Source: Streptomyces hawaiiensis (GTDB lineage Bacteria; Actinomycetota; Actinomycetes; Streptomycetales; Streptomycetaceae). From it: a stretch of DNA of 64,000 nt. The translations under genes and the position numbers were made by a program. Below, piece after piece: positions 32,066-62,640 of the stretch (its first letter is position 1; each line of letters begins with the position of its first letter). The stretch spans positions 7,130,001 to 7,194,000 of the forward strand of contig NZ_CP021978.1 of the NCBI RefSeq assembly GCF_004803895.1. Direction: 5' to 3'. The notes under the pieces are model-generated. The model was not told the origin of the DNA. It saw only the letters and a list, made by a program, of their open reading frames with translations, and did not search any database.

Positions 32066-33247
32066 TCAGGGCCGGCAGGGGGAGTTGACCGGCTCGCTGG
32101 GGTCGGGAAGTGCATCGGCCATCAGCGGCCATAGCCGAGCTATATGGAGGAGTTGGGCCAGGTCGCTGCTATCAGGGTAGGGAAGCTGGCTGGGCTTGGA
32201 CGAAGGTACTGCGGCGAGCTTTGCACGCCGGGCTTGACCCATAGCGCCAGCGAGCGCGGCCGCTTTGTGGCGGTCAGCTGGAACACCAATGCGTTGGGCG
32301 TGCTGACGCGCATGATCGTAGGCGCCTGGATACACGTAGAATCGGAGACCCAACAGCGCGTCATAGATCTCGATGGTCTGGCGGTGGGCTTGCAGCACCA
32401 ACGAGGTGGACGGCCACAGCACTTCCTGAATCCGGGTTCGTCGTGGCTGTACCAGTGCAACATCAGGTACAGCTTTCAGCAGATCTCGCCACAGCGGCCA
32501 CAGTATCCAGATGGTCCGCAGGGCCGATGCCTTGCGGGTGTAGGCGGTAGCGGTGGGGACGAGAAGCGAGGCCGCTCGGAACAGACCATGGACGTTGATG
32601 GCTACGGCGACATATGGCAAGGCGACGGGCACGCGGTTGTAGAGATGGACAAGATAGGTGGCCCAGTACGCGACAGCCAGAAGGCTGCCGACTGCGAACA
32701 GCCTCAGAGACCAGACAAGGTCGTGATCATCGGTTTGGCGAACGTGTTGCCAGCAGACGATGGTGGCGACGCAGTCGGTCACCAAGTGAGCGATGATGAC
32801 AATGAGCCAGTACACAGTCGAGGGAGAAGCGGGACCTCCAGCCAGAGGGATGCTGGGGCCGGGGTAGGCCCCTTCGCTCAAGTCCATGAGCAGCAGCACC
32901 GCCACGACGATCACCAGCCCCCAAGAGAGGGTCAGCTGCAGATGGCGCTCGTATACGGGGCCGACCAGGAAGAGGAGTGTGAGCCCGGCGCTCAGAACAC
33001 CGACGAGATTCCTGGTCAGAGTGATCGCATGCGCGTCCCCGGTGGCGCCCGTGCTCCAGGCGATGATCTCCGGCTGGAAGAGTGTGATGGCGATGGCGGC
33101 AGCCAGGACCGCTAGCCAGAGCCCACGTTGGTGGGCTAGGCGCAGGGCGGAGCGAGCGCGCCAAGCAAGAGCGGTCCACATGGCGATGACGCTGCTCCAG
33201 CCGGTAAGACCGGCCATCTCATTCACTGTCATCGGCAGCCACTCCAA
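32066..33247 (-). CDS. MAB_1171c-like polytopic membrane protein
   Basis: The 393-residue protein has about seven hydrophobic helices in its first 235 residues (for example GLWLAVLAAAIAITLF, LVGVLSAGLTLLFLV, LSWGLVIVVAVLLLM, IVIIAHLVTDCVATIV) and a cytoplasmic C-terminal domain of about 150 residues (LWPLWRDLLKAVPDVALVQP, IEIYDALLGLRFYVYP). This layout is that of the actinobacterial MAB_1171c/DUF6545 family, whose function is not established. It overlaps the upstream peptidase gene by 29 bases and closes a three-gene cassette with an XRE regulator. The conserved company suggests membrane sensing or signalling, possibly coupled to proteolysis of the regulator; this is inference. Confidence 0.75.
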   Translation of the reverse strand: MEWLPMTVNEMAGLTGWSSVIAMWTALAWRARSALRLAHQRGLWLAVLAAAIAITLFQPEIIAWSTGATGDAHAITLTRNLVGVLSAGLTLLFLVGPVYERHLQLTLSWGLVIVVAVLLLMDLSEGAYPGPSIPLAGGPASPSTVYWLIVIIAHLVTDCVATIVCWQHVRQTDDHDLVWSLRLFAVGSLLAVAYWATYLVHLYNRVPVALPYVAVAINVHGLFRAASLLVPTATAYTRKASALRTIWILWPLWRDLLKAVPDVALVQPRRTRIQEVLWPSTSLVLQAHRQTIEIYDALLGLRFYVYPGAYDHARQHAQRIGVPADRHKAAALAGAMGQARRAKLAAVPSSKPSQLPYPDSSDLAQLLHIARLWPLMADALPDPSEPVNSPCRP

Positions 33248-33740
33248 GGAATGCCCCGATTCGGCCTAACGTACCGCTAGGCCGGGCTACACGTCTCGTG
33301 CTGTGTAATAAGCTAGCGATCATCTCGGCTTCTTGTTCTTCTATGGCGGTATAGCGTGTCCGGGTCATGAGGCGCTTGATCAGCTGAGGCTGAAGACCAT
33401 TGAATAGGCCACTCAGCTGATCGGCTGCCACGGAGTTTGGTGCACGATGGTGGTCGCACAAAATGTGGCCGAGTTCGTGGAGGATGATGTGCTGTTGATG
33501 AAAGGGAACGGTGTGCGCCTGGTAGAAGACTAAGTCTGCTTCATCGATTCCCAACCAAAGCCCGCACACTCCGGTTGCCGCGATCTGGTCAGGTAATTCT
33601 CTCAGGATTAGAGGGCGCCCTCGCCGCTCTTCGACCCATTGGCAAATCGCTTCAAATGAATTAGTTTGAGGTGCGTGGAGATTATCGAGAATTTTTCGAC
33701 ACCGGCGCTGCAATCGCAAATATTCGCTAGTGGGCATCAT
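33219..33740 (-). CDS. ImmA/IrrE-type zinc metallopeptidase-like protein
   Basis: The 173-residue protein has the zinc motif HELGH in HIILHELGHILCDHH, preceded by GLWLGIDEADLVFYQ and followed by an acidic helix (AIEEQEAEMIASLLH) that can supply the third ligand. This is the ImmA/IrrE core, known to cleave or inactivate XRE-family repressors in ICEBs1 and Deinococcus. I chose ATG 33740 because CAGGAG lies 9 bases before it. It sits between the XRE gene and the membrane-protein gene on the same strand, so the XRE protein encoded upstream is its most likely target. Confidence 0.82.
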   Translation of the reverse strand: MMPTSEYLRLQRRCRKILDNLHAPQTNSFEAICQWVEERRGRPLILRELPDQIAATGVCGLWLGIDEADLVFYQAHTVPFHQQHIILHELGHILCDHHRAPNSVAADQLSGLFNGLQPQLIKRLMTRTRYTAIEEQEAEMIASLLHSTRRVARPSGTLGRIGAFLGVAADDSE

Positions 33741-33979
33741 GTGGCGCTTCTCCTGGTTTCTTCGCTCGCATTTGCGGAAAAGTGACACTGCCGACCAGTC
33801 TTCATCTTTGCCCCAGGCGGGGTAACCACGTGGGATGTGGTCGTGTCACGTGGAAGGCTGTGGCGGCTCTGCGAGACCGTGCGGGCTGCGCAGGTCGGCC
33901 GGGTCCTTTTTCGGTAACCGATCACCAGCGCTGCTGCTCCGCATAAAAGACGGCGGGCTCCGCTGGTACGCGAGGAATG

Positions 33980-34486
33980 CTATGAGGCATCCGAGGTGTG
34001 CTGATCGTCGGATGCGGTCGCAGGCATGACTCGCAGAGAGTCTCGGGCCTGCGCAGCGGCATCGATGATGCCGCTGAGAAGCTCTGACATTTGGTCTGCA
34101 GAAAAAGACGCAGAGTGGGGTGAGCGCAGGGCCGCTGACCGAACCTTGTGCCGGCTCAGTTCCCGCACTGTCGCCAGCTCCGTATTGACCTGCTGGAAGA
34201 CCTGCTCGTCGAGGAAATAGGCCCACCGGGCGATGCCCAGGCTGTGGGCTACTTTCACCAGAGTTTCGATGGTGAGGTTTGTTCCATCAGCGGACTCGGC
34301 CGATGCCAAAGTGCGTTTCGATACGCCAGCGCGCTCGGCTAGTTGGGCCAGGGTGAACGGCCCTTCCGGGTGGTGCTGCCGGATGTGTCGCAACCGTGAC
34401 GCGATAGCGGTCTTCGCGCCACGGACCTGTTCGTCCAGCCCGTGCGTCGTCGAGGCGTCGTGCTCTACATGTTGGCCAGCTGGCAC
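33980..34486 (-). CDS. XRE-family helix-turn-helix regulator
   Basis: The 168-residue protein begins at GTG 34486 behind GGGAG. Residues about 28-85 form an XRE domain (FTLAQLAERAGVSKRTLASA, TIETLVKVAHSLGI). The C-terminal part is helical and could be a dimerisation or sensing region, ending with a polar tail. It heads the cassette with the peptidase-like and membrane genes; a 239-base gap separates it from the peptidase gene. A perfect 16-bp palindrome lies 18 bases upstream of its start, a likely autoregulatory site. Confidence 0.82.
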   Translation of the reverse strand: MPAGQHVEHDASTTHGLDEQVRGAKTAIASRLRHIRQHHPEGPFTLAQLAERAGVSKRTLASAESADGTNLTIETLVKVAHSLGIARWAYFLDEQVFQQVNTELATVRELSRHKVRSAALRSPHSASFSADQMSELLSGIIDAAAQARDSLRVMPATASDDQHTSDAS

Positions 34487-34503
34487 TCTCTGCTCCCGTC
34501 ATA

Positions 34504-34540: not shown

Positions 34541-35161
34541 CTGATCGATCCGCGAGGCTATGGTCAACCAGCGGGAAGGAGGGCTCGAGAAGGGGCGACC
34601 AACGTGAACTCGCCCTGTGCTGAGGTGAGATGCCTTCGACGGTTCGGTCAGCGTGCAAGCGTGAGGGGTGGCCTGTAACTACAAAGGGGACCCCCTGGTG
34701 AAGGCGGAGGCGCATAGTCGGCTGATCAGATTACTAGCGTGAAGATCTACTGTGCAAGCTGCGCGCTTCCCTTGCCGAGGTTCTGCTTGACGCCTCGGGG
34801 GGCGGGTGTGGTGCCTGTCGTCCTTCGTCGTGCCGAGTCTGGCCTCGCGCTGGGTGCGGAAGTTTTCTGTGATCCGTTGCGGCGGCCCATTGGTGTCACC
34901 CCTTGAGTGCGCCCAGCAGTGGCATGCGGAAAATTTCTGGCGTTGTCTCTCCTGCCTGCCCATGCGGTCACCTCTCCTGGGTTCATTGAATTGCCGGTCG
35001 CTGTTCGGTAAAGCCTGGCGTGGGCGCCGCTAGGGCAGCATCGCTTCGGTCGGCCCTGGCGGCAGGGTGCGCTCAAGTCAAATTCGCGCCTTAGTGACAC
35101 TTGCCGAATATCGATTGACTATTCGTGCAGTTATTTCGATTTTCCCAATTAGGGGGATTGC
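34541..35161. other. Intergenic region before the lipopeptide cluster
   Basis: No clear gene is seen in these 620 bases. A 47-residue minus-strand frame (ATG 34890, MGRRNGSQKTSAPSARPDSA) is rich in Ser, Arg and Thr and is not recognised. The last 75 bases are AT-rich with TTGACT (35115-35120) and a strong AGGGGG ribosome site (35151-35156) and probably carry the promoter of the biosynthetic operon. Confidence 0.5.
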
Positions 35162-35986
35162 GTGCAGCTGGCAAAAAGCGTGCTGGATCAGTATGACCGC
35201 GATGGGTTCGTCCTCGTCCCGGGGGCCTTTTCTCCTGCCGAGATGGACTGCCTTAAGGGGGCGATGGCCGAGGACGTGGCGTCCAGTAAGGGTCCGCATC
35301 TGATCACGGAGGATGACGGTGCGACACTGCGGGCCGTTTACGCGTCACACACCCGGCATCCGCTCTTCAGTACGTTGGTTTCGTCCGCGCGACTCCTCGC
35401 CCCGGCGATGCAGTTGGTGGCTCAGGACCTCTACGTGCACCAATTCAAGATCAACACGAAGCGGCCCTTCGGGGGCGAATCATGGGCATGGCACCAGGAC
35501 TACCCCGTGTGGCGCGACGCCGACCGTATGCCGGAACCACGTGCCGTCAACGTGGCCGTATTCCTGGACGAGGTAACCGAGTTCAACGGCCCCGTGGTGT
35601 TCCTGCGGGGCTCGCACAGGCTCGGGTCGGAAGCGAGTTCTCGCCAGCAGGCCAACCAGGCGGGGGAGCACATCGATCCGCATGACTACGCGCTGTCCAC
35701 CGGTGACCTGTCCAAGCTCGCGGAAGTGCACGAGATGACGAGCCCCAAGGGGCCGGCCGGAACCGTCGTCTTCTTCCACCCGGAGATCATGCATGGATCA
35801 GCACCGAACATCTCCCCCTTCCCGCGCGACCTGCTGATTGTGACGTACAACGCCTCCACTAATGCGCCTCGCCCGGTGGGAGAACCGCGCCCCGAATATC
35901 TCGTGGGCCGGGACGTCACGCCCCTCGTGCCGAACTCGTGGACACTGGAGACTATTGGGGCATCCATAGCGCGGGCGGAATCGTGA
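35162..35986 (+). CDS. Fe(II)/2-oxoglutarate dioxygenase, GriE-like L-leucine 5-hydroxylase
   Basis: The 274-residue PhyH-family protein starts at GTG 35162 behind AGGGGG. The iron triad is visible as His111 and Asp113 (WAWHQDYPVW) and His211 (EIMHGSAPN); the Arg that binds 2-oxoglutarate follows in PFPRDLLIVTYN. The sequence closely recalls GriE of the griselimycin pathway, which hydroxylates free L-leucine at C5 and starts (2S,4R)-4-methylproline formation (comparison from memory). The next gene, coupled by a GTGA overlap, is the matching dehydrogenase, and the NRPS has two proline-type adenylation domains. The gene opens the cluster. Another amino-acid hydroxylase activity (ectoine or proline type) is less likely. 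Confidence 0.85.
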   Translation: MQLAKSVLDQYDRDGFVLVPGAFSPAEMDCLKGAMAEDVASSKGPHLITEDDGATLRAVYASHTRHPLFSTLVSSARLLAPAMQLVAQDLYVHQFKINTKRPFGGESWAWHQDYPVWRDADRMPEPRAVNVAVFLDEVTEFNGPVVFLRGSHRLGSEASSRQQANQAGEHIDPHDYALSTGDLSKLAEVHEMTSPKGPAGTVVFFHPEIMHGSAPNISPFPRDLLIVTYNASTNAPRPVGEPRPEYLVGRDVTPLVPNSWTLETIGASIARAES

Positions 35987-37098
35987 CGACCTGGGAATTC
36001 GCCGCAGCGGCGGTACTCGAGGGATTCGGGCAGACGGTGTCGATCCGGAAACTGCGCGTGCCTGAGCCGAACGAGGGCGAGATGCTCGTCGATGTGACAT
36101 ACGGCGGCATCTGCGGAACGGATCTTCACCTGCAGCAGGGCCACCTGCCGATTCCGACTCCTCTGACACTTGGACACGAGGGCCTGGGCACGGTCCGCAG
36201 CCTCGGGGCGGGAACAACCGTCGACGCGTGTGGCGCCACTCTGCACGTGGGGGACACGGTCATGTGGGCCTCGTCGATCTCCTGCGGACAGTGCATGCCG
36301 TGCCGGCAGTACCGTGAACCCACGTTGTGCGAGGCACGCCGGACGTATGGGGTCAACCGCTCGCTCGCCGAAGGCGCCGGACTCTCCGGCGCATGGGCGG
36401 AAACCATTCTGCTGCACCCGGGCGTGGTCGTCGTGAAACTGCCGCAGGGCGCTGACGAGTTGGCCGCTATGTCGCTGGCCTGCGCCGGGCCGACTCTGGT
36501 GCACGCCCTGTACGAGCGGCGTCCGGTCAGGCTCGGTGAAACCGTGATCGTCCAGGGAAGCGGACCGGTCGGGCTCGCGGCCGCGGCCCTCGCCCACATG
36601 GCCGGCGCGGAGAAGGTCATCCTGGTCGGCGGACCGCGTCAACGCCTGGACCTGGCCGCGAAGTGCGGGATCGGCCATCACCACATCGACATCGTGGACG
36701 GCGCGAACCCCCAGCAGGCCCTCGACCAGGCGCGCGCGCTGACACCGGGGGGCACCGGCGCGGACCTCGTCATCGAGTGCGCAGGAATCCCGGGCGCTGT
36801 CGCTCAGGGGCTGACGCTGGCCCGGCGCGGTGGCTCGTATCTCGTGGTCGGACAGTACACCGATAACGGGGACACTATGCTCAACCCGCACCAGATCGTC
36901 CATCGCCAACTGGACATTCACGGCTCCTGGGCATTCAGCGGCGCTCACCTCGTCGAGTACGTCCGTCTGCTTCCCGTCCTCTCCAACCGATTCGACCTGC
37001 GGAGCCTCGTCGTTCCCTTCCCGCTGGCCGATGTCCGAATCGCCATGGAAGCAGTGGCCAACGGCACCGTCATCAAGGCCGTCCTTCAGTCGGCCTGA
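35983..37098 (+). CDS. Zinc-dependent alcohol dehydrogenase, GriF-like 5-hydroxyleucine dehydrogenase
   Basis: The 371-residue medium-chain dehydrogenase has the catalytic zinc Cys and His (GGICGTDLHLQQG, LGHEGLG), the structural zinc Cys cluster (CGQCMPCRQYREPTLC) and the NAD-binding motif GSGPVGLAAAAL. The GTG start at 35983 overlaps the stop of the hydroxylase gene, so translation is coupled. In griselimycin and nostopeptolide pathways such a dehydrogenase oxidises 5-hydroxyleucine to the semialdehyde, which cyclises to a methyl-pyrroline carboxylate. A reductase then gives 4-methylproline; no gene for it is next to this pair, so a housekeeping pyrroline-5-carboxylate reductase may serve. 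Confidence 0.82.
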   Translation: MTTWEFAAAAVLEGFGQTVSIRKLRVPEPNEGEMLVDVTYGGICGTDLHLQQGHLPIPTPLTLGHEGLGTVRSLGAGTTVDACGATLHVGDTVMWASSISCGQCMPCRQYREPTLCEARRTYGVNRSLAEGAGLSGAWAETILLHPGVVVVKLPQGADELAAMSLACAGPTLVHALYERRPVRLGETVIVQGSGPVGLAAAALAHMAGAEKVILVGGPRQRLDLAAKCGIGHHHIDIVDGANPQQALDQARALTPGGTGADLVIECAGIPGAVAQGLTLARRGGSYLVVGQYTDNGDTMLNPHQIVHRQLDIHGSWAFSGAHLVEYVRLLPVLSNRFDLRSLVVPFPLADVRIAMEAVANGTVIKAVLQSA

Positions 37099-37680: not shown

Positions 37681-37726
37681 CCGCCCTTGGGCAGAACCTC
37701 AGACAGCGAAAGAATCGAGGAATCAG

Positions 37727-37987
37727 ATGGGAATCGAGGAAGAGCGGTATGACGCCAATCTGGACAGGGTCAAGAAGATCGTGTGCGATCGGCTGGAGCT
37801 CGACGAGGACGAAGTGACCCTGACGAGCCTCTTCCATGAGGAGCACGGTTCGGACTCCCTCCAGAGCATCGAAATCCTCGCTGCCCTGGAGGCGGATTTC
37901 GACATCGAGATCGATCAGTCCCAGCTTCCTAGAATGGTCAATGTTAAAGGCGTCTACGAGGTTGTAGCCGAGACCATCGGCTGGTAA
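37727..37987 (+). CDS. Acyl carrier protein
   Basis: The 86-residue acidic protein starts at ATG 37727 behind GAGG. The phosphopantetheine site is DSLQSIEIL with Ser44, in the usual ACP setting, followed by DFDIEIDQSQLPRM. It should carry the growing acyl chain for the ketosynthase pair encoded next, and deliver it to the starter condensation domain of the first NRPS. Confidence 0.92.
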   Translation: MGIEEERYDANLDRVKKIVCDRLELDEDEVTLTSLFHEEHGSDSLQSIEILAALEADFDIEIDQSQLPRMVNVKGVYEVVAETIGW

Positions 37988-38026: not shown

Positions 38027-39289
38027 ATGTCAACGGCCGCCCTTGACGACGTATCAGGCGCTCCTCTGCGCCGAGTGGTTCTGACCGGCCTGGGCGTAGT
38101 GTCGAGCATCGGCATCGGCGTCGATGAATTCGCCGCGTCGCTTCGCGCCGGACGGAGCGGCGCGGGGCCGATCAGCCAGTTCGACACGACAGGATTCGCC
38201 CACTCGAACGGCTGTGAGGTGGTCGGATTCGAACCCGAGCAATGGATCTCGAACCTCGACCTGGAGAACGTGGGACGAGCCAGCCGGTTCTCCGTAGCCG
38301 CTGCGCGGATGGCCGTCGCGGACGCCGGTCTGGAAGCCGAAGAGCTCGCCAGCCAACGCGGACTGGTCTGTATAGGGACCACCGACGGCGAATCACACGA
38401 CCTGGATCAACTCGTGGAGATCGAGCTGCGGGACGGACACGAGAGCATGCCCACAGCGGTCGCTGGACGGGTCAGTCCCCTCCGGTTGTCCATCTCCATC
38501 GCTCAGGAACTCGGCCTCGCCGACGTCGAGGCAACGGTGATTGCGACCGCCTGCGCTGCGGGCAACTACGCAATCGGCAGCGGTTTCGACGCGGTCCGCA
38601 CCGGCGAAGTTGACTATGCCCTGTGTGGAGGCGCCGACGCCATTTGCCGCAAGACCTTCACGGGTTTCTATCGGCTCGGCACTATGGCCCCCGACGTCTG
38701 CCGCCCCTTCGACAAGGACCGCAAGGGCATCCTCACCGGAGAGGGCGCTGGCGTGCTGATGCTGGAATCGCTGGAATCTGCGCTCGCCCGCGACGCCCGT
38801 ATCTACGCCGAGGTGCTCGGATACGGCCTCAACTGCGATGCCTACCATCAGGTGGCGCCGCACCAGGAAAGCGTGACGCGCTGCATGGAGCTGGCACTGC
38901 GGGACGCGGGCGTCGACCCGAGTCAAGTCGATATGATCTCTGCCCACGGCACCGGCACCAAGGCCAATGACATCACCGAGACCAGAGCCATCCGCGACGT
39001 GTTCGGTGATCAGCCGCCACGTACGGTCTCGATGAAGTCGATGCTCGGTCACACTCTGGGCGCGGCCAGCGCACTCGCCGCCATCGGCTGCGCCCTGGCC
39101 ATCACCAACAAATTCATCCCGCCCACCATCAATCACGTCACCACCGATCCGGAATGCCAGATCGACTGCGTTCCCAACGAGGCGGTCGAAGCGGAACTCG
39201 AGATCGTCCAGAACAACGGTATGGCATTTGGCGGAAACAACGCCGTGGTAATCCTCGGTAAATACAAGAGTGAGGTGGCAGCGCGATGA
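38027..39289 (+). CDS. Beta-ketoacyl-ACP synthase (type II PKS ketosynthase)
   Basis: The 420-residue KAS II-type protein has the full catalytic triad: Cys176 (ATACAAGNYAIG), His306 (SAHGTGTKAND) and His342 (MLGHTLGAASAL). It extends the ACP-bound chain by malonyl units. It overlaps by 4 bases with the second ketosynthase-like gene, the arrangement of KS/CLF pairs. Together with a ketoreductase and ACP it resembles the highly reducing type II PKS sets that make polyene acyl starters (ishigamide, skyllamycin and related). Confidence 0.92.
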   Translation: MSTAALDDVSGAPLRRVVLTGLGVVSSIGIGVDEFAASLRAGRSGAGPISQFDTTGFAHSNGCEVVGFEPEQWISNLDLENVGRASRFSVAAARMAVADAGLEAEELASQRGLVCIGTTDGESHDLDQLVEIELRDGHESMPTAVAGRVSPLRLSISIAQELGLADVEATVIATACAAGNYAIGSGFDAVRTGEVDYALCGGADAICRKTFTGFYRLGTMAPDVCRPFDKDRKGILTGEGAGVLMLESLESALARDARIYAEVLGYGLNCDAYHQVAPHQESVTRCMELALRDAGVDPSQVDMISAHGTGTKANDITETRAIRDVFGDQPPRTVSMKSMLGHTLGAASALAAIGCALAITNKFIPPTINHVTTDPECQIDCVPNEAVEAELEIVQNNGMAFGGNNAVVILGKYKSEVAAR

Positions 39290-40407
39290 CGGTAGCGAAA
39301 TCCGGCGCCGGCCGCCGCCTTGTAATCACCCGGTGGTCGGCTATTTCCCCTTTTGGGCTCGGTCAGGAAGCTTTCCGGGAAGGGATACGCGCCGGGCGCA
39401 ACACTGTCCATTCTCTCGACGCCGAACAGTGGTCCGCCCCCGTCCAGCAAGCCTGCCTGGTACCGGACTTCTCCGTCAGGGACCTGCTGGGCAAAAAGGG
39501 CACCCGGGGCATGGACAGGGCGACCGGCCTCGCTGTCGGTGTGACGGCTGAACTGCTGCGGGACGACGACAGCGGCAGCCGCGCCGTTCCGAAAGGAGAG
39601 GGCACGGGCCTCGTTCTCGGGACGACGACCGGCAGCGCCGACAGCATGATGGGCTACACCCGCACATCGATGCAGAAGTCCAAGCCGTTTCTCGTCGACC
39701 CCGCGCTTATGCCGTATACAGTGATGAACTGTGCGGCCGGGCAGTGTGCCATCTGGCACGAACTCAAAGGCCCGAACGCCACTGTCGCGGGCGGCCAGTC
39801 TGCGGGATTGCTCGCACTCAACTACGCGCGACGACTGCTCGCTTCGGGACGGGCTGAAAGGATCCTGTGCGGTGCTGCGGAGGAATTCTCCTCTGCCCGC
39901 GCCTGGATCGAGGACCGTCGGAACGGTGGAACAACGGCCGACATGCTTCTCGGAGAAGGCAGTGCCATGTTCCTCATCGAGGCCGCCGACGAGACCGCGG
40001 CCGACCGTATGCCGCTCGCCGAGATAATCGATGTACGGATACGGACGCACGCACACGGCGACAGGCGCAGCACCGTCGCCGCATGTGTCTCGGATGTCCT
40101 GCAGCGTAACGGGGTGCACCCCGATGACGTGTGGGCCGTCGCGTCTTCCGGCGGACAGACGCCCTACGAGGATCAGGAAACGGATGCACTGCACGAGTGC
40201 TTCTCCGGGTCCGACATCGAGTGGATCTCGGTGGCCGACGTGCTGGGCGACACCGGAGCCGCCGGCGCGGCGTTCCAGATCGCCGCCACGCTCAGCCTTG
40301 CTGGCCTCCATCCCGAAGCCGAGGGGAAAGTGGCCGTGATCACTTCAGTCGACAGAGACGGCATCGTGGCCTGTTCGCTGCTCAGGACGGGCGGTGGCAA
40401 TCGATGA
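39286..40407 (+). CDS. Chain-length-factor-like ketosynthase homolog
   Basis: The 373-residue protein has the thiolase/KS fold but a changed active site. Cys149 is kept (VMNCAAGQCAI), but the region of the first His reads ASSGGQTPYEDQ instead of AHGTGT, and the second His region reads VLGDTGAAGAAF with Asp in place of His. It cannot act alone as a condensing enzyme and probably forms a heterodimer with the preceding ketosynthase, setting chain length. The retained Cys is unusual for a classical CLF, where Gln is common. The start ATG overlaps the previous stop codon. Confidence 0.85.
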   Translation: MTVAKSGAGRRLVITRWSAISPFGLGQEAFREGIRAGRNTVHSLDAEQWSAPVQQACLVPDFSVRDLLGKKGTRGMDRATGLAVGVTAELLRDDDSGSRAVPKGEGTGLVLGTTTGSADSMMGYTRTSMQKSKPFLVDPALMPYTVMNCAAGQCAIWHELKGPNATVAGGQSAGLLALNYARRLLASGRAERILCGAAEEFSSARAWIEDRRNGGTTADMLLGEGSAMFLIEAADETAADRMPLAEIIDVRIRTHAHGDRRSTVAACVSDVLQRNGVHPDDVWAVASSGGQTPYEDQETDALHECFSGSDIEWISVADVLGDTGAAGAAFQIAATLSLAGLHPEAEGKVAVITSVDRDGIVACSLLRTGGGNR

Positions 40408-41189
40408 GCAACAACGGGATGGACATCGGCCCGAAGAGGGCAGCGGAAGCGGGAACATCGCGGATCGCCCTGGTGAGCGGCGGCTCACGAGGTATCGGAC
40501 GCGCGGCGGTACTGAAGCTGGCGCGCGACGGGTTCGATGTGAGCTTTTGCTACCAGTCGAACGCCGACATGGCAGAGGCCGTTCGGAAGGAACTCAGCAG
40601 CCTCCCTGTCCGTACGCTCGCCGTCCAGGTCGACGTGGCCAACGCGGAAGCCGTGCGGGGATGGGTCACCCGCACCCAACGCGAGCTGGGTCCCATCGAC
40701 GTCCTCGTCACTTGCGCGGGCATCACCCGGGACAAGCCGCTCATGACCATGAGCGACGACGACTGGCATCAGGTCCTCGACACCAACCTCGATGGCAGCT
40801 ACCACGTCAACCGGGCCGTCATCGTCCCGATGATGAAGCGGAAGTCCGGCTCCATCATCAACGTCTCCTCGGTGTCAGGTGTCCACGGAAACCCCACGCA
40901 GACGAACTACTCGGCATCGAAAGCTGGAATCATCGGGTTCTCCAAGGCGCTGGCGAAAGAAGTCGGCCGGTTTGGTGTTCGGGTCAATGTCGTCGCGCCC
41001 GGGCTCATTGAAACCGATATGACCGAAGCGCTGAGTGAAAATGCCAGGAGAGATCTGCTGCGCGCTATTCCTCTGTGCCGCTTCGGTAGCTCCGAGGAAG
41101 TCGCAGACCTGATCTCCTACCTGGCCTCGGATGCCGCTTCCTACATCACCGGCAGCGTGTTCGAGATCCATGGTGGTATCACCATCTGA
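40404..41189 (+). CDS. 3-oxoacyl-ACP reductase (FabG-like ketoreductase)
   Basis: The 261-residue SDR begins at ATG 40404, overlapping the previous stop. It has the NADPH motif [11 protein letters not shown], the CAG variant of NNAG ([10 protein letters not shown]), catalytic Ser in NVSSVSG and the YSASK Tyr/Lys pair. It reduces the beta-keto group formed by the ketosynthase. The set KS-CLF-KR-ACP lacks a dehydratase; for a polyene or saturated acyl chain one must come from elsewhere in the cluster or from the fatty acid synthase. Confidence 0.9.
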
Positions 41190-41224: not shown

Positions 41225-44200
41225 ATGCGTGAAGACGGGAGCATTACGTTGTCCAGTGGCCGCCGCGGAATTGTCCTGCCATTGTCCTCGGCTCAGCGCG
41301 AAGTGTGGTTTGCGCAGCAGCTAGACGTGGCCAATCCGTTCTACAACGTCGGGGGCTATCTGGAAATACTCGGCCCGATCGACGCGACACTGTTCGAGGC
41401 AGCGCTGCGTCAGACCGTATCCGAGGCCGAGGCGCTTCACGTGCGATTTGTCGAGCAGGAGGGTGAGCCGGGACAGATCCTCGAGCCGCCGTCGCGGTGG
41501 CCACTTCACCACATCGACGTCAGCGACGCCCCGGACCCACGGGCCGCCGCCGAGGAGTGGATGCGGGCCGATCTCGCCAAGCCGTACAACCTCGCGCAAG
41601 GCCCGCTCTTCCGCCAGGCCCTCTTCACCGTCGCCCCCGACCGCTTCTTGTGGTACGAGGGCAGTCACCACATCGTGCTCGACGCGCTGAGCCATTCCCT
41701 CATAATCCGGCGGGTCGCCGAAGTGTACACATCGCTGGTTGACGATCAGCCGGTCCCGGCCACCCGCTTCGGTTCTCTGACGTCTCTCCTCGACGACGAA
41801 GCGGAGTACCGTCAGTCGGCCCGCTACGAGAAGAGCCGAACGTACTGGCTCAACCGCTTCCACGACCAGCCTGAAACCGTACGGCTGGCTGGCCCGCCCA
41901 TGGCCATGCCGTCCACCTTCCTGCGCCGCACGGCCTACCTCCCGCACGGAGTCTGGCAGTTGGTCCGCAAGGCAGCTGCGGAGACGGGCACTACCGTTCC
42001 CAACGTGATCACTGCTGCGGTGGCGGCGTTTCTCCAGCGGATGACCAACGCGCGTGAAGTCGTCCTCGGTCTCGCCGTCACGGGCCGGGACAGCAGCTGG
42101 CTGCGACGCGTCCCGGGCATGCTCGCCCACGCGGTTCCGCTCCGAATCCCGATCGGCTCCGCCACGATCATGACGGACCTCATCCGGCAAACGTCACAGG
42201 AGAGTTTCCAGGCACTGCGCCACCTTCGGTATAGCAGCGAAGAACTCCGGCGCGACCTGCCGGCCCGCGGGGGACGCCAGAACATCTTCGGCCCGCTCGT
42301 CAACTACATGTCGTTCGACTACGACCTGCGCATGGGGCCACACCGCACCTACTTCCACAACATCTCTAACGGTCCCGTGGAGGACCTTTCGATCGCCGTC
42401 TACGACACCCATGACGGCCAGGACATCCGCCTGGACTTCGACGCAAACCCGCAGCTTTACAGCCCGTCCGAGATCGTGACGCTGCAACAGCGATTCCTTC
42501 GCTTTCTCGAATCGTCCCTCTCCGTCGGCATCGACCAGCCGATCGCACGGGCCGTGCTGCTGTCGGCGGACGAGCGTGCCCAGATCATCGAGGCTCGGAA
42601 TGCCACCGACCGGGAGGTGATCGTCCCGAGCGTGCTCTCGGAGGCGTTCGAGGCGCAGGTGCGGGTGACGCCGGCCGGGGTGGCGGTGGTGTGTGACGAG
42701 GTCGAGGTTTCGTATGCGGAGTTGAATGAGCGGGCGAATCGGCTGGCGCGGTTGCTGGTTGCGCGGGGTGCGGGGCCGGAGCGGTTGGTGGGGCTGGCTG
42801 TTCCGCGGTCGGTGGAGTTGGTGGTGGCGGTCCTGGCGGTGTTGAAGGCCGGGGCGGCGTATCTGCCGTTGGATGTGGAGTATCCGCGCGAGCGGTTGGC
42901 GTTCATGGTGGGGGATGCGGCGCCGGTGTTGCTGGTGTCCACCGAGGCGGTGGTGGCCGGCGTGCCGGGGGATGTGGAGCGGGTGCTGCTGGACGATCCG
43001 GCGGTGCTGGAGGAGCTGGCCGGTCTGCCCGCGGGCGATGTCGAGTCTGGTGAGCGGCTGGGTGTGGTGGGGCCGCAGTCGCCGGCGTATGTGATCTACA
43101 CGTCCGGTTCCACCGGCACACCCAAGGGCGTCGTGGTGACCCACGCAGGTGCCGCGAGCCTAGTCTCCCAACAGGTTGACGGGCTTGGTGTAGGCGCGGA
43201 CAGCAGGGTCCTGCAGTTCGCCTCACCGAGCTTCGACGCGATGTTCTGGGAATGGTGCATGGCGCTGTTGACTGGCGCGGCCCTGGTGCTCGCCGACAAT
43301 CAGCGCCTCGCGCCAGGGCCCGCCCTCGCCGAGCTGGCAGCGGAACACCGTGTCACCCATGCCACGATTCCCCCCGCAGCTTTGGCGATCATGGCACCGG
43401 ACTCCCTCCCTATGGTGACCACCCTGGTGGTCGCCGGCGAGGCGTCATCGGCAGCCCTTGTCAGCGACTGGGCCCCCGGGCGGACAATGATCAACGCCTA
43501 CGGCCCGACCGAGAGCACGGTCTGCGCGACCATGACCGGTCCCCTCACTGGGACGGGTACCCCGCCGATTGGTCGGCCGATTTGGAATACGCGGGTGTAT
43601 GTGCTGGATGCCGGGCTGGCGCCGGTGCCGGTGGGTGTTGCGGGTGAGTTGTATCTGGCGGGCGTGGGTCTGGCGCGCGGGTATCTGAACCGTCCTGGTC
43701 TGACGGCGGAGCGGTTTGTGGCGAATCCGTTCACTCCTGGTGAGCGGATGTATCGCACTGGGGATCTGGTGCGGTGGAATGCCGAGGGTGAGCTGGAGTA
43801 TCTGGGCCGGGCCGACTCCCAGGTGAAGGTGCGGGGTTTCCGGATCGAGCTGGGTGAGGTCGAGACGGTGCTGGCTGGCCGGCCGGAGGTTGGCCAGGCG
43901 GCGGTGATGGTGCGTGAGGACCGTCCCGGTGATCAGCGCATCGTGGCCTATGTGGTGCCGGGTGCGGGGCGTGTGGTGGATGAGCGTGTGCTGCGTGGGC
44001 GTCTGTCGGAGGTGTTGCCGGAGTACATGGTGCCGTCGGCGGTGGTGGTGCTGGACGCGCTGCCGTTGACGCCGAACGGGAAGCTGGACCGGCGGGCCCT
44101 TCCCGCGCCCGATTTTGGTGGTGGTCGGGGGGTGCGGCGTGGTCCGCGGTCGCCGCAGGAGGAGGTGCTGTGTGCGGCGTTCGCTGAGGTGCTGGGTGTG

Positions 44201-47200
44201 GGGCAGGTCGGTGTCGATGACAGCTTCTTTGAGCTGGGTGGCCATTCGTTGCTGGCGACGCGGTTGATCAGCCGGGTGCGGTCGGTGCTGGGTGTGGAGT
44301 TGTCGGTGCGGGCGGTGTTCGAGGCGCCGACGGTGGCCGCCCTGGCACAGCGGTTGTCGCAGGGCCAGGGGGCTCGGCCGGCGGTGCGGGTCGTCGAGCG
44401 GCCGGACATCGTGCCGTTGTCGTTCGCTCAGCGGCGGTTGTGGTTCCTGCACAGGCTGGAGGGGCCGAGTGCGACGTACAACATGCCGATGGCGATCCGG
44501 CTGTCGGGTGAGCTGGACCGGGACGCGCTGAGGCTGGCGCTGGGTGATGTGGTCGAGCGGCACGAGAGTCTGCGGACGGTATTCGGGGAAGCCGACGGGG
44601 TGCCGTACCAGCGGGTGCTGGATGTGGTGGACGTCGCCATCCCGGTCGTCCCGTTGACGGAGACGGAGCTGGCGCGGGAGACCGCTGAGGCCGCAGCCCA
44701 CGCGTTCGACCTGACCGCGGAGATCCCCCTTCGCGCGACGCTGTTCGAGCTGTCGCCGACCGAGCATGTGCTGCTGCTGGTACTGCACCACATCGCCGCT
44801 GACGGCTGGTCCATCGTTCCGCTGTCCAGGGACCTCGCCCTGGCATACACGGCTCGTACGGCGCACAGGGCGCCCGAATGGTCTCGGCTTCCCGTGCAGT
44901 ACGCGGACTATGTGGCGTGGCAGCGTGAACTCCTCGGCAGCGAGGAAGAGCCGAACAGTCTCATCAGCCAGCAGGTCGGCTACTGGACAGACGCTCTCGC
45001 CGGGATACCTGAGCGGTTGAATCTCCCGGCGGATCGTCCCCACCCCGCGGTGGCTACCTTCACCGGTGGTGTGGTGCCCTTCGCGTTCAGCGCGGACGCC
45101 CACCAGTCGGCGGTCGCACTGGCCCGCGAAACCGGTTCGACGGTGTTCATGGTCGTCCAGGCGGCGTTGGCCGCGCTGCTGCACAAGCTCGGCGCGGGGA
45201 CGGACATTCCGATCGGCTCCCCGATCGCCGGTCGCACCGACCAGGCACTCGACGGCGTGGTGGGCATCTTCGTCAACACCCTGGTGTTGCGTACGGACGT
45301 ATCGGGTGACCCGTCGTTCCGGGAGCTGCTGGCGCGGGTGCGGGAGACGGACCTGGCCGCATACGCCCATCAGGACGTTCCCTTCGAGCACCTGGTAGAG
45401 GTTCTCAGCCCGGCGCGCTCACTGTCGCATCACCCGTTGTTCCAGGTGATGCTCGCGGCAGAGGACGTCAATACCGGCCTAATCGACCTGCCCGGACTCG
45501 CATCGAGCCTGCAGCCTCTCGGAACCGGCACGGCCAAATTCGATCTCTCGCTCTCCTACAGTGAACTGCACTCCGAGGACGGCACCCCCGCGGGTATCGA
45601 TTGCCGCATCGAATACAGCGCTGACCTCTTCGACCACGCCACCGCGGAGCGCATCGGGGCGTACCTGACGCGATTCCTGGAAGCTGCCGTCAACCACACA
45701 GACAGCTCCGTGAGGAACCTCGACATCCTCACGACCACCGAGCACCTTCGGATCGAAGAGGAGTGGAATGACACCGCGCACAACGTCGTCGAACTTACGC
45801 TCACGGAGCTCTTCGAAGAGCAGGCGGCCCGGACACCGGGCCGTACGGCTCTGGTCTTCGAGGATAGCGAACTGACGTACGGGGACCTGCATGCACGGGC
45901 CGACAGCCTGGCGTCCCTGCTGACAAGCTTCGGCGCCGGCCCCGAGCGTGTGGTGGCAGTGGCCGTTCCCCGGTCGATCGATCTGGTCGTCGCTCTCCTC
46001 GCGGTGCTGAAGTCCGGGGCGGCCTATCTGCCGCTCGACCCGGACGACCCATCCGAGCGCACGGCTTTCGTACTCGACGACGCGCAGCCGATCCTCCTGC
46101 TGGTCACCGAGGAGACATCCACCCTCCTGCCGCAGACCGGTTCGACCCCGGAACGGATCGTGCTGGACAGCCCCGAGACCCGGATACGCCTGGCTCGGTC
46201 CGCCGACGATCGGGAGCAGCCGGAGCCCGGCGAGCGCCCCACGACGCCGCTGCCGCAGCACCCGGCATACGTCATATACACCTCAGGTTCGACGGGACGT
46301 CCGAAGGGTGTGCCGATTCCCCACAGCGGGATAGTTAACCGGCTGCTGTGGATGCAGGCCCAGTACGGCCTCACCGGCGAGGACCGTGTGCTGCAGAAGA
46401 CGCCGTCGAGTTTCGACGTATCCGTCTGGGAGTTCTTCTGGCCGCTGATCGCGGGCGCCGGCCTCGTTATCGCACGGCCTGGCGGCCACAAAGATCCGGC
46501 CTACCTAGCCGACCTCATCAACGAGCAGCAGGTCACCACGGCGCACTTCGTGCCCTCCATGCTGCGGGCGTTCCTGTCCCGGCCCGCGGCGGCCACCTGT
46601 ACGAGCCTGCGGCAGGTGATCTGCAGCGGCGAGGCCCTGACCGCGGACCTCGCACAGGCGTTCCATACGACTCTGAGCATCCCGCTGCACAACCTGTACG
46701 GCCCTACCGAGGCTTCCGTCGACGTCACGTACCACGCTTGCGCCTCCGAGACGGAAGACAAGCACCCGCCGATTGGTCGGCCGATTTGGAATACGCGGGT
46801 GTATGTGCTGGATGCCGGGCTGGCGCCGGTGCCGGTGGGTGTTGCGGGTGAGTTGTATCTGGCGGGCGTGGGTCTGGCGCGCGGGTATCTGAACCGTCCT
46901 GGTCTGACGGCGGAGCGGTTTGTGGCGAATCCGTTCACTCCTGGTGAGCGGATGTATCGCACTGGGGATCTGGTGCGGTGGAATGCCGAGGGTGAGCTGG
47001 AGTATCTGGGCCGGGCCGACTCCCAGGTGAAGGTGCGGGGTTTCCGGATCGAGCTGGGTGAGGTCGAGACGGTGCTGGCTGGCCGGCCGGAGGTTGGCCA
47101 GGCGGCGGTGATGGTGCGTGAGGACCGTCCCGGTGATCAGCGCATCGTGGCCTATGTGGTGCCGGGTGCGGGGCGTGTGGTGGATGAGCGTGTGCTGCGT

Positions 47201-50200
47201 GGGCGTCTGTCGGAGGTGTTGCCGGAGTACATGGTGCCGTCGGCGGTGGTGGTGCTGGACGCGCTGCCGTTGACGCCCAGCGGCAAGGTGGACCGGCGGG
47301 CCCTTCCCGCGCCCGTTATCGACACTGAGTCCTCGGGCCGAGGCCCCCGGACACCCCAGGAGGAGATCCTCTGCGGAGTGTTCGCCGAGGTCCTGGGAGT
47401 TTCCAGGGTCGATGTCGACAGCAACTTCTTTGAGCTGGGTGGCCATTCGTTGCTGGCGACGCGGTTGATCAGCCGGGTGCGGTCGGTGCTGGGTGTGGAG
47501 TTGTCGGTGCGGGCGGTGTTCGAGGCGCCGACGGTGGCCGCCCTGGCACAGCGGTTGTCGCAGGGCCAGGGGGCTCGGCCGGCGGTGCGGGTCGTCGAGC
47601 GGCCGGACATCGTGCCGTTGTCGTTCGCTCAGCGGCGGTTGTGGTTCCTGCACAGGCTGGAGGGGCCGAGTGCGACGTACAACATGCCGATGGCGATCCG
47701 GCTGTCGGGTGAGCTGGACCGGGACGCGCTGAGGCTGGCGCTGGGTGATGTGGTCGAGCGGCACGAGAGTCTGCGGACGGTATTCGGGGAAGCCGACGGG
47801 GTGCCGTACCAGCGGGTGCTGGATGTGGTGGACGTCGCCATCCCGGTCGTCCCGTTGACGGAGACGGAGCTGGCGCGGGAGACCGCTGAGGCCGCAGCCC
47901 ACGCGTTCGACCTGACCGCGGAGATCCCCCTTCGCGCGACGCTGTTCGAGCTGTCGCCGACCGAGCATGTGCTGCTGCTGGTACTGCACCACATCGCGGG
48001 CGACGGCGGTTCCCTCCGCCCGGCACTCCGGGACGTTGGTGTGGCGTATGTGGCGCGGGCGGGTGGGCGTGTGCCGGGGTGGTCGGAGTTGCCGGTGCAG
48101 TATGTGGATTACACGCTGTGGCAGCAGGAACTGCTAGGTGATGAGGGTGATCCGGACAGTCTGGTGAGCCGTCAGGTGGCGTACTGGTCGAAGACGCTGG
48201 AGGGCCTGCCTGAGCAGCTGGAGTTGCCGGTGGACCGTCCGCGTCCGGCGGTGGCCAGTTATGCCGGTGATGTGGTTCCGCTGGCGGTGGATGCGGAGGT
48301 GCATGGTCGGATTGTGGCGCTGGCTCGGGAGTGTGGGGCGAGTGTGTTCATGGTGTTGCAGGCCGGTCTGGCGGTGTTGCTGAAGCGGCTGGGTGCGGGG
48401 TCGGACATTGCGTTGGGTTCGCCAATCGCGGGGCGGATGGACGAGGCGCTCGATGATCTGGTCGGGTTCTTCGTCAACACTCTTGTGCTGAGGACCGACG
48501 TCTCCGGTGATCCGTCGTTCCGGGAGTTGCTGGGGCGGGTGCGGGAGACGGATCTGGCCGCTTATGCCCATCAGGATGTGCCGTTTGAGCATCTGGTGGA
48601 GGTGCTGAATCCGGCGCGGTCGTTGTCACATCACCCGTTGTTCCAGGTGATGCTGGCGTTCCAGAGTGCTGAGCGTGGTGAACTGTCTCTGCCGGGTGTG
48701 CAGGTTTCGAGCATGCCGGTGGGGACGGGCACCTCCCGCTTCGATTTGCTGTTCAACGTCGATGAGCGGTTCTCGGCGTCGGGTGTGGCGTTGGGGCTTG
48801 AGGGGTTTGTGGAGTTCAGCACGGATCTGTTCGACCGGGGCACGGTGGTGTCGTTGGTGGAACGGCTGGTGCGGGTGCTGGAGCAGGTGGTGGCCGATCC
48901 GGGTGTGCGGGTCGGTGCGGTGGAGCTGCTGTCGGCGGACGAGCGTGCCCAGATCATCGAGGCTCGGAATGCCACCGACCGGGAGGTGATCGTCCCGAGC
49001 GTGCTCTCGGAGGCGTTCGAGGCGCAGGTGCGGGTGACGCCGGCCGGGGTGGCGGTGGTGTGTGACGAGGTCGAGGTTTCGTATGCGGAGTTGAATGAGC
49101 GGGCGAATCGGCTGGCGCGGTTGCTGGTTGCGCGGGGTGCGGGGCCGGAGCGGTTGGTGGGGCTGGCTGTTCCGCGGTCGGTGGAGTTGGTGGTGGCGGT
49201 CCTGGCGGTGTTGAAGGCCGGGGCGGCGTATCTGCCGTTGGATGTGGAGTATCCGCGCGAGCGGTTGGCGTTCATGGTGGGGGATGCGGCGCCGGTGTTG
49301 CTGGTGTCCACCGAGGCGGTGGTGGCCGGCGTGCCGGGGGATGTGGAGCGGGTGCTGCTGGACGATCCGGCGGTGCTGGAGGAGCTGGCCGGTCTGCCCG
49401 CGGGCGATGTCGAGTCTGGTGAGCGGCTGGGTGTGGTGGGGCCGCAGTCGCCGGCGTATGTGATCTACACGTCCGGTTCCACCGGCACACCCAAGGGCGT
49501 GGTGATGACGGTGGAGGCGCTGGCCAATCTGATTGCTTGGCATGTGGCGACGATCGGGGCGGGGCCGGAGGCGTCGGTGGCGCAGTTCACGGCGATCAGT
49601 TTCGATGTGTCGGCGCAGGAGATTCTGGAGACGCTGGGGTCGGGTAAGCGTCTGGTGGTTCCGGATGCTGATGTGCGGCGGGACGCGGCGCGGTTCGTCC
49701 GGTGGCTGGAGGAGTATCGAATCACGGAACTGTACGCGCCGAACGTCATGGTGGAAGCGGTCTGCGAAGCCGCGCTCGAACAACACCGCACCCTTCCCGC
49801 CCTCCACCACATCGGCCAGGCCGGTGAAGCACTGCGACTGAGTTCCGCGGTGCAGGACTTTTTCTCCGCATCCTCCGACCGCCGCATGCACAACCACTAC
49901 GGCCCCGCTGAGACGCACGTCGTCACGGCTCACTCCCTGTCGGACGATGTGACGGGATGGCGGGCGACGGCTCCGATTGGTCGGCCGATTTGGAATACGC
50001 GGGTGTATGTGCTGGATGCCGGGCTGGCGCCGGTGCCGGTGGGTGTTGCGGGTGAGTTGTACATCGCGGGCGCCGCCCTGGCCCGCGGCTACCACGACCG
50101 TCCTGGTCTGACGGCGGAGCGGTTTGTGGCGAATCCGTTCACTCCTGGTGAGCGGATGTATCGCACTGGGGATCTGGTGCGGTGGAATGCCGAGGGTGAG

Positions 50201-53200
50201 CTGGAGTATCTGGGCCGGGCCGACTCCCAGGTGAAGGTGCGGGGTTTCCGGATCGAGCTGGGTGAGGTCGAGACGGTGCTGGCTGGCCGGCCGGAGGTTG
50301 GCCAGGCGGCGGTGATGGTGCGTGAGGACCGTCCCGGTGATCAGCGCATCGTGGCCTATGTGGTGCCGGGTGCGGGGCGTGTGGTGGATGAGCGTGTGCT
50401 GCGTGGGCGTCTGTCGGAGGTGTTGCCGGAGTACATGGTGCCGTCGGCGGTGGTGGTGCTGGACGCGCTGCCGTTGACGCCCAGCGGCAAGGTGGACCGG
50501 CGGGCCCTTCCCGCGCCCGTTATCGACACTGAGTCCTCGGGCCGAGGCCCCCGGACACCCCAGGAGGAGATCCTCTGCGGAGTGTTCGCCGATGTCCTGG
50601 GAGTTTCCAGGGTCGATGTCGACAGCAACTTCTTTGAGCTGGGTGGCCATTCGTTGCTGGCGACGCGGTTGATCAGCCGGGTGCGGTCGGTGCTGGGTGT
50701 GGAGTTGTCGGTGCGGGCGGTGTTCGAGGCGCCGACGGTGGCCGCCCTGGCACAGCTGCTTCCCAGTGCCGGTACGGCCAGGCCGGCGGTGCGGGTCGTA
50801 TCCGAGCGGCCGGACATCGTGCCGTTGTCGTTCGCTCAGCGGCGGTTGTGGTTCCTGCACAGGCTGGAGGGGCCGAGTGCGACGTACAACATGCCGATGG
50901 CGATCCGGCTGTCGGGTGAGCTGGACCGGGACGCGCTGAGGCTGGCGCTGGGTGATGTGGTCGAGCGGCACGAGAGTCTGCGGACGGTGTTTCCCGAGGT
51001 TGATGGGGTGCCGCAGCAGAGGGTGCTGAGTGTCTCTGCGGCGGGCGTGGGGTTGTCGGTGGTGTCGACGGTGGAGGAAGAGCTGCCTGAGAGGCTGGCG
51101 GCCGCGGCTGCCGATGGTTTTGACCTGGCGAACGATCTTCCTTTGCGTGTGACGCTGTTCGAGCTGTCGCCGACCGAACATGTCCTGCTGTTCGTACTGA
51201 ACCACATTGCTGGCGACGGTTGGTCCCTGCGGCCTTTGTCGCGCGACGTCACAGAGGCGTATGTGGCGCGGGTGGGTGGGCGTGTGCCGGGGTGGTCGGA
51301 GTTGCCGGTGCAGTATGTGGATTACACGCTGTGGCAGCAGGAACTGCTCGGTGATGAGAGCGATCCGCAGAGTGTCATCAGCCGTCAGGTCGATTACTGG
51401 AAGACAGCCCTGACGGACATCCCCGACCGGCTGGACGTTCCGGTGGACCGTCCGCGTCCGGCGGTGGCCAGCTATCGAGGCGATCTCATCGACATCCAGA
51501 TGAGCGCGGAGGTGCATGGTCGGATTGTGGCGCTGGCTCGGGAGTGTGGGGCGAGTGTGTTCATGGTGTTGCAGGCCGGTCTGGCGGTGTTGCTGAAGCG
51601 GCTGGGTGCGGGGTCGGACATTGCGTTGGGTTCGCCAATCGCGGGGCGGATGGACGAGGCGCTCGATGATCTGGTCGGGTTCTTCGTCAACACTCTTGTG
51701 CTGAGGACCGACGTCTCCGGTGATCCGTCGTTCCGGGAGTTGCTGGGGCGGGTGCGGGAGACGGATCTGGCCGCTTATGCCCATCAGGATGTGCCGTTTG
51801 AGCATCTGGTGGAGGTGCTGAATCCGGCGCGGTCGTTGTCACATCACCCGTTGTTCCAGGTGATGCTGGCGTTGCAGAACACGCCTGAGGGTGCGTTTGT
51901 TCTGCCCGGTTTGGAGAGTCGTATCGAGCCGGTGGGGACGGGAACGTCGCGGTTCGATCTGTTCTTCAATCTGCGGGAGCGGTTCTCGGCGTCGGGTGTG
52001 GCGTTGGGGCTTGAGGGGTTTGTGGAGTTCAGCACGGATCTGTTCGACCGGGGCACGGTGGTGTCGTTGGTGGAACGGCTGGTGCGGGTGCTGGAGCAGG
52101 TGGTGGCCGATCCGGGTGTGCGGGTCGGTGCGGTGGAGCTGCTGTCGGCGGACGAGCGTGCCCAGATCATCGAGGCTCGGAATGCCACCGACCGGGAGGT
52201 GATCGTCCCGAGCGTGCTCTCGGAGGCGTTCGAGGCGCAGGTGCGGGTGACGCCGGCCGGGGTGGCGGTGGTGTGTGACGAGGTCGAGGTTTCGTATGCG
52301 GAGTTGAATGAGCGGGCGAATCGGCTGGCGCGGTTGCTGGTTGCGCGGGGTGCGGGGCCGGAGCGGTTGGTGGGGCTGGCTGTTCCGCGGTCGGTGGAGT
52401 TGGTGGTGGCGGTCCTGGCGGTGTTGAAGGCCGGGGCGGCGTATCTGCCGTTGGATGTGGAGTATCCGCGCGAGCGGTTGGCGTTCATGGTGGGGGATGC
52501 GGCGCCGGTGTTGCTGGTGTCCACCGAGGCGGTGGTGGCCGGCGTGCCGGGGGATGTGGAGCGGGTGCTGCTGGACGATCCGGCGGTGCTGGAGGAGCTG
52601 GCCGGTCTGCCCGCGGGCGATGTCGAGTCTGGTGAGCGGCTGGGTGTGGTGGGGCCGCAGTCGCCGGCGTATGTGATCTACACGTCCGGTTCCACCGGCA
52701 CACCCAAGGGCGTCGTGGTGGCGCAGGAGAGTGTGGCTGATCTGTTGTCCTGGGCGGTGCGGGCGTTTGACCGGGGGCGGTTGTCGCATGTGCTGGCCGC
52801 GACGTCACTGAGTTTCGATGTGTCGGTGTTCGAGCTGTTCGCTCCGTTGGTGTCGGGTGGCTCGGTGGAGGTGGTGCGCGATGTGCTGGCACTGCTGGGC
52901 CGGCCGTGGTCGGGCAGCTTGATCAGTGCGGTTCCCTCGGCTCTGGCGCAGGTGGTCGGACAACCGGATCTGGCCGTGAAGGCGCAGACGGTGGTGCTGG
53001 CCGGGGAGGCACTCTCGGCGCAGGTGGTCGCGGATATCCGGGCCGCCATGCCGGGGTGCCAGGTGGCCAACATCTACGGCCCGACCGAGGCCACGGTCTA
53101 TGCCACAGCCTGGTTCGCCGGTGTGGACCACACTGTCACCCCGCCGATTGGTCGGCCGATTTGGAATACGCGGGTGTATGTGCTGGATGCCGGGCTGGCG

Positions 53201-62373: not shown

Positions 62374-62412
62374 AGAAACAAGAGCAGACAAGAAAAACGA
62401 AAGGTGACTATC

Positions 62413-62640
62413 GTGTCCAATCCCTTTGAGGACAACGACAGCGAATACCTGGCGCTTGTCAACGACGAAGGACAATACTCACTCTGGCCCGCGTACATCG
62501 GCGTCCCTGAGGGATGGCATGTAGCGCACCAGAAGGCTGGCCGTCAGGTCTGCCTGGAATACATTGAGGCGCAATGGACGGACATGCGTCCCCGGAGCCT
62601 TGCCCAAGCGGTCACGCAGGCCACGACGGCAACTCAGTAG
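62413..62640 (+). CDS. MbtH-like protein
   Basis: The 75-residue protein starts [20 protein letters not shown] and has the conserved Trp pattern of MbtH proteins ([18 protein letters not shown], then W in [12 protein letters not shown]). MbtH proteins bind the adenylation domains of NRPSs and are often required for their folding or activity. I chose GTG 62413 because AAAGG lies 8 bases before it and the protein then starts as in the family; GTG 62404 is possible. The gene is the last of the biosynthetic operon. Confidence 0.95.

Follow-up and report, generated by a model that had tools for sequence, protein, structure and literature searches.

A GriE/GriF-like gene pair as the probable 4-methylproline supply module of an ADEP-type cluster in Streptomyces hawaiiensis

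Described alkylproline pathways and the ADEP cluster

The formation of 4-methylproline has been described for griselimycin, whose griE-H sub-operon includes, besides griE and griF, the oxidoreductase gene griH and the type II thioesterase gene griG (PMC5676206). In GriE, Fe is bound by H110, D112 and H210, and the carboxylate is bound by R242 (PMC5676206). GriH was termed an 'F420-dependent oxidoreductase'; it was active with NADH, F420 was undetectable, and 4-methylproline was formed in a coupled assay (PMC5676206). It was also reported that deletion of griH from griE-H in S. lividans left 4-methylproline unchanged and that E. coli ProC carried out the last step together with GriF in vitro (PMC5676206). 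The nostopeptolide enzymes LdoA, NosE and NosF, as described in the same paper, follow the same three-step logic, whereas LdoA and GriE share only about 13% identity and their routes lead to opposite stereochemistry at C4 (PMC5676206). In mycoplanecin biosynthesis, MypE and MypF form a GriEF-type pair, the last step was reconstituted in a coupled assay with the producer's own ProC (aaProC), and 4-ethyl- and 4-propylproline are made with a proposed radical-SAM methylation (PMC10817943).

The ADEP (A54556) cluster (Thomy et al. 2019, PMC6805094) is characterised by two NRPSs, methyl-proline genes, a type II PKS and a nearby clpP; its features were compared with those of the present locus through the descriptions given in citing papers. 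The self-resistance protein ClpP_ADEP is encoded near the ADEP cluster and is most similar to ClpP1 (PMC12607617), and the peptide content of ADEPs has been reviewed (PMC8182300). As of 2017, A-domains for 4-methylproline and for proline were not distinguished by antiSMASH 3.0 (PMC5676206).

The hydroxylase-dehydrogenase pair and its assembly line

The DNA analysed, referred to as the window, is a stretch of 64,000 nucleotides of Streptomyces hawaiiensis (contig NZ_CP021978.1, positions 7,130,001 to 7,194,000); positions past its end continue the same numbering. The features discussed are collected in Table 1.

Table 1. Features of the window and of two related clusters
Feature	Coordinates	Strand	Family, size and remarks
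F420/LLM-type oxidoreductase	26291-27346	-	Bac_luciferase family; about 8 kb upstream of the hydroxylase gene
ImmA-like putative metalloprotease	33219..33788	-	no Pfam family matched
HTH regulator beside the cluster	33980..34486	-	PF01381
Putative GriE-type Fe(II)/2OG L-leucine 5-hydroxylase	35162..35986	+	PhyH family, 274 aa
Putative GriF-type zinc dehydrogenase (5-hydroxyleucine to semialdehyde)	35983..37098	+	Zn-ADH domains, 371 aa
Decayed cytochrome P450 gene	37099..37726	+	fragments, frame breaks, two large deletions compared with relatives
Acyl carrier protein (ACP), polyene type II PKS	37727..37987	+	PF00550 and NCBIfam ACP models; start ATG 37727
Ketosynthase (KS)	38027..39289	+	FabF family, E 3e-108, under equivalog cut-off
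CLF-like partner	39286..40407	+	weak KS-family match, E 2e-29, under cut-off
3-Ketoacyl reductase (KR)	40404..41189	+	TIGR01830 over cut-off, query from 40410
NRPS 1	41225..55234	+	four C-A-T modules, methyltransferase in the fourth; Pfam domains
NRPS 2	55231..62373	+	two C-A-T modules and thioesterase; Pfam domains
MbtH-like protein	62404..62640	+	PF03621, E 9e-25
ALAS, two acyl-AMP ligases and MFS transporter (cassette)	L115:2902-9697 (S. echinatus), L116:10153-16904 (S. hygroscopicus)		

Among the 18 distinct PDB sequences matched by the hydroxylase in a phmmer search, GriE (5NCH) ranked first (E 7.5e-105, 353 bits), and the runner-up sequences reached 209 bits. Alignment counting, with the letters checked, placed H111, D113, H211 and R243 of the hydroxylase opposite the Fe ligands and the carboxylate-binding arginine of GriE, so that all four were found to be kept. 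The best PDB match of the adjoining dehydrogenase was 1VJ0 (E 4.1e-54, queried from a longer, mechanically chosen start at 35938). The dehydrogenase sequence carries Cys44 and a four-cysteine lobe (C101, C104, C107 and C116), which we take to have zinc-binding roles. It is regarded as the counterpart of GriF by family and gene position rather than by direct alignment. These observations bore out the description of the two genes in the earlier note as a GriE/GriF-like pair, and the same chemistry as in the griselimycin route is expected of the pair.

The dehydrogenase gene is likely to start at GTG 35983. Its start overlaps the hydroxylase stop in a GTGA motif, which recurs in both close relatives described below (3/3), where the dehydrogenase counterparts are 83-85% identical to that of the window. 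Because of this overlap, translational coupling of the two genes is likely. Similar overlaps (ATGA) join KS to CLF, CLF to KR (KR start ATG 40404) and NRPS 1 to NRPS 2. The genes downstream of the pair lie on the same strand, beyond a gap of 0.63 kb that holds the decayed P450 gene. When positions 34400-38100 were scanned with consensus sequences, of the sigma-70 type only for promoters, no promoter-like site was found, hence none upstream of the pair, and the gap between dehydrogenase and ACP gave no terminator-like site. Because the scan returned neither kind of site, the operon claim is based on gene anatomy, and one promoter common to the pair and the assembly line is plausible. The HTH regulator gene has counterparts upstream of the hydroxylase gene in both related clusters. 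So does the neighbouring gene at 33219..33788, presumably a metalloprotease gene and named ImmA-like from a motif; its counterpart in S. echinatus is weak.

Transposase-type ORFs flank the cluster on both sides (14991-30153 and 63933-68877, the latter extending past the window end) and belong to DDE families, IS110 and ISL3. One of them, at 24943-25635, is the second transposase gene near the F420/LLM-type gene, which it adjoins, and the ORF at 18579-20192 fuses a DDE domain to an aminoglycoside adenylyltransferase C-terminal domain.

The A-domain pockets, with motifs read by eye, were assigned in order to Phe, Ser, Pro and N-methylated Ala in NRPS 1 and to Ala and a variant of the Pro type in NRPS 2; these assignments use specificity codes and GrsA numbering, the Ala reading being the weakest. 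Alignment position 278 was out of register in A1, A2, A4 and A5 and was read by eye from the motifs. The readings agree with the reviewed ADEP peptide content (PMC8182300), and it is proposed that the variant Pro code of NRPS 2 specifies 4-methylproline. An extra, intact ClpP gene was found at 67482-68102, 3.5 kb past the window end, and its product was closest to the genome's own ClpP1 (74%). Two NRPSs with four and two modules, a terminal thioesterase, a type II PKS and a nearby ClpP1-like clpP, all traits of the ADEP cluster, are thus present together. The ADEP system is already known, and the cluster is probably the published locus of S. hawaiiensis NRRL 15010. Circumstantial evidence for this strain comes from gene spacing: when the locus tags published for S. 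hawaiiensis (PMC9765437) are scaled to the position of clpP1, clpC1 and clpC2 are expected at 4.95 and 7.28 Mb, and long-frame Clp_N matches were found at 4.92 Mb (870 aa) and 7.31 Mb (902 aa) of the single 8.88 Mb contig. The agreement is not unique, as a further long frame with a Clp_N match lies at 4.69 Mb (882 aa) and shorter frames at 4.87 and 5.88 Mb. Counted from one GTG start, the catalytic serine of ClpP1 is residue 113, which fits the S113A mutant described in the literature.

The best reading, supported by the sequence comparisons, is that the pair supplies the neighbouring NRPS with 4-methylproline. It is highly probable that the pair represents the 4-methylproline supply module of an ADEP/A54556 cluster, with the host ProC finishing the residue and module 6 loading it. 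In the proposed route, the hydroxylase would convert L-leucine to (2S,4R)-5-hydroxyleucine, and the zinc dehydrogenase would oxidise this to 4-methylglutamate semialdehyde, which would cyclise spontaneously to 3-methyl-pyrroline-5-carboxylate. The single housekeeping ProC of the host would reduce the latter to (2S,4R)-4-methylproline, NRPS module 6 would load it as the last residue, and the thioesterase would then lactonise the peptide onto serine. The two enzyme activities and the stereochemistry of the product are predictions from homology.

A-domains 3 (about 48995-50105) and 6 (about 59776-60930) were found to be identical at 356 of 370 residues (96%). Two of the 14 differences between A3 and A6 fall on predicted pocket positions, namely Ala to Gly at 301 and Val to Leu at 330. 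Glycine at 301, being smaller, could leave space for the 4-methyl group. The A6 pocket of S. echinatus reads as that of the window, and the part of A6 that is present in S. hygroscopicus has the same Gly and Leu. Two proline-like pockets of another S. echinatus NRPS (L102 and L104) have neither residue. The same is true of the clearest proline-like A-domain near other GriE loci (L084, DIQLAAHAV), which tells against a general mark of 4-methylproline, unless this domain takes plain proline. The comparison of A3 with A6 suggests a sequence difference between 4-methylproline and proline A-domains. The ADEP cluster paper may already describe either of these features, the changes in the A6 pocket or the decayed P450 gene.

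Related clusters and the decayed P450 gene

Two related clusters, one from S. hygroscopicus ATCC 21589 and one from S. echinatus CECT 3313, were found to have the gene order of the window, HTH/ImmA-hydroxylase-dehydrogenase-(P450)-ACP-KS-CLF-KR-NRPS, and 72-86% identity to it across five proteins. Each was pieced together from two contigs of one genome, the ends being joined by inference. In these relatives, the slot that follows the dehydrogenase gene holds a full-length P450 ORF (PF00067; 435 and 427 aa). In the window, this slot gave weak P450-family matches and a tblastn match of E 4e-47 over 145 residues with an internal stop, and the DNA blocks 36900-37178 and 37264-37666 were about 81% identical to the S. 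hygroscopicus sequence. Compared with the griselimycin sub-operon, in which griH and griG are included, the P450 ruin alone stands between the pair and the ACP gene; griselimycin is also a different peptide.

After the MbtH gene, both relatives carry genes for two acyl-AMP ligases, with one for an enzyme of the 5-aminolevulinate synthase (ALAS) type between them, followed by an MFS transporter gene (Table 1). The S. echinatus ALAS-type enzyme scored over the TIGR01821 cut-off. An ALAS-type enzyme together with a ligase constitutes the route to the C5N unit. Enopeptins are among the listed C5N compounds (PMC3917283), and a peptide core common to ADEPs and enopeptins has been given (PMC13194151). 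Because of the cassette and of this literature, the two clusters are apparently of the enopeptin type. In the window, an apparent acyl-AMP ligase remnant after the MbtH gene proved to be MbtH read out of frame, and DNA comparison showed no remnant.

In S. hygroscopicus ATCC 21589, a ClpP fragment of 42 aligned residues (L116:11770-11895) adjoins the MFS gene; it is possibly a relic of a ClpP resistance gene. The fetched end flank of S. echinatus gave no significant ClpP match. The enopeptin-type relatives thus have no intact clpP within the fetched end flanks, whereas the cluster of the window has an intact extra ClpP gene nearby.

The last enzyme, alternative readings and the kinship of ADEPs and enopeptins

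When the window was searched by phmmer with the host ProC as query (E <= 1e-3), no ProC-like gene was found, in agreement with the earlier claim that the third enzyme of the route is missing nearby. In this respect the locus differs from nostopeptolide LdoA/NosE/NosF. In contrast to the complete griselimycin operon, neither an LLM nor a ProC-like match that would correspond to a griH-type imine reductase was found next to the pair. P5CR_dimer (ProC) was matched exactly once in the genome, at 4.959 Mb. The earlier note had left the choice between the host pyrroline-5-carboxylate reductase and a gene located elsewhere. The single ProC and the competence of ProC in the griselimycin and mycoplanecin assays favoured the former, and the last step is very probably carried out by the housekeeping ProC of the cell. 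Because the published work indicates that ProC suffices, a dedicated imine reductase is not needed, and since the cluster corresponds to the known ADEP cluster, the absence of a cluster-borne one is unsurprising. This removes the supposed puzzle of a 4-methylproline pathway without an imine reductase of its own.

The surroundings of other GriE genes were also studied. A GriE-like protein (E <= 1e-60) was found in 22 of the 392 Streptomyces genomes searched, S. hawaiiensis included, and the survey covered 22 GriE loci besides that of the window, from 21 genomes, with 9-20 kb fetched for each. A GriF-like gene was present at 18 of these loci. Within the fetched DNA, an LLM-type gene was found at none of the 22 (judged with an LLM profile rather than with GriH itself) and a ProC-like gene at one; thus, an unlinked reductase is the usual state among the sampled loci. 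The exception, L081:5033-5932, belongs to a different Streptomyces genome, where a GriEF pair is about 3 kb away, and scored 194.5 bits against the pyrroline-5-carboxylate reductase model, under the cut-off of 254. It is possibly a dedicated imine reductase gene of a second type, and some GriE clusters may have a dedicated reductase. At L076, a candidate LLM gene close to the pair gave no match once the frames were corrected. The griselimycin cluster was recognised neither among the 392 genomes of the genus nor among the five loci of a contig scan.

A FabG-like SDR gene was observed just upstream of the pair at 13 GriEF loci (L067-L076 and L080-L082; via L044-L052, L056-L058 and L061), eight of which hold an A-domain with the pocket DLFF(A/F)GLAC. 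Judging from this gene content, these loci would represent a recurring, uncharacterised cluster in Streptomyces.

The F420/LLM-type gene at 26291-27346 was absent from the account in the earlier note. As a GriH counterpart that mobile elements had moved away, it could be thought to encode the dedicated reductase of the imine, since it belongs to the Bac_luciferase family and only about 8 kb separate it from the hydroxylase gene; GriH is presumably a member of the Bac_luciferase/LLM superfamily. This candidate was nevertheless judged unrelated to the pathway because its family occurs throughout the genus: at E <= 1e-60, the family was found in 36 of 37 sampled genomes, S. hawaiiensis included, whereas GriE had a match at the same threshold in just five of the 37. 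A second copy, 75% identical, lies at 4.33 Mb in the genome; the gene at 26291-27346 is oriented opposite to the cluster, from which a transposase gene (29200-30153) separates it. No LLM match was obtained in the flanks fetched for the two related clusters, and it is very improbable that this gene provides the missing step. Slightly better placed, but still quite unlikely, is an imine reductase other than ProC located elsewhere in the genome. The Bac_luciferase family is represented at 23 places in the genome, one of them in the window, and these places, the formation of 4-methylproline by GriH in a coupled assay (PMC5676206) and the ProC-like gene at L081 would fit such an enzyme. Against it stand the demonstrated competence of ProC (PMC5676206, PMC10817943), the presence of a single ProC in the genome, and the finding that the flanks fetched for the two related clusters gave neither an LLM nor a ProC-like match. 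Completion of the residue by the housekeeping ProC therefore remains the preferred reading.

The identity of the product was weighed in the same way. Since the gene content of the window is nearest to that of the two clusters with the ALAS/ligase cassette, the cluster might direct the synthesis of an enopeptin, or of some unknown analogue, instead of an ADEP. However, no ALAS match (E <= 1e-3) was obtained within coordinates 1-79000, where the C5N cassette (ALAS and ligase) was likewise not found, and DNA homology to both relatives does not extend beyond the MbtH gene, ending at about 62629. The P450 gene is broken and the extra ClpP gene is intact, and a product other than an ADEP is accordingly considered highly unlikely.

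With an ADEP as the preferred product, the comparison permits a further proposal, whose chances we regard as even: the ADEP cluster would be a stripped-down enopeptin cluster, and module 6, for the last residue, would have been adapted from module 3, the proline module, by the pocket changes at 301 and 330 so as to accept 4-methylproline. The chains of A54556 end in a methyl group. If the proposal is true, the P450 would oxidise the polyene end and the ALAS/ligase cassette would make and attach the C5N cap, and their loss would explain the methyl end of A54556 as against the C5N unit of enopeptins. The comparison of these clusters may therefore provide a testable account of the kinship between ADEPs and enopeptins, two families of natural antibiotics.
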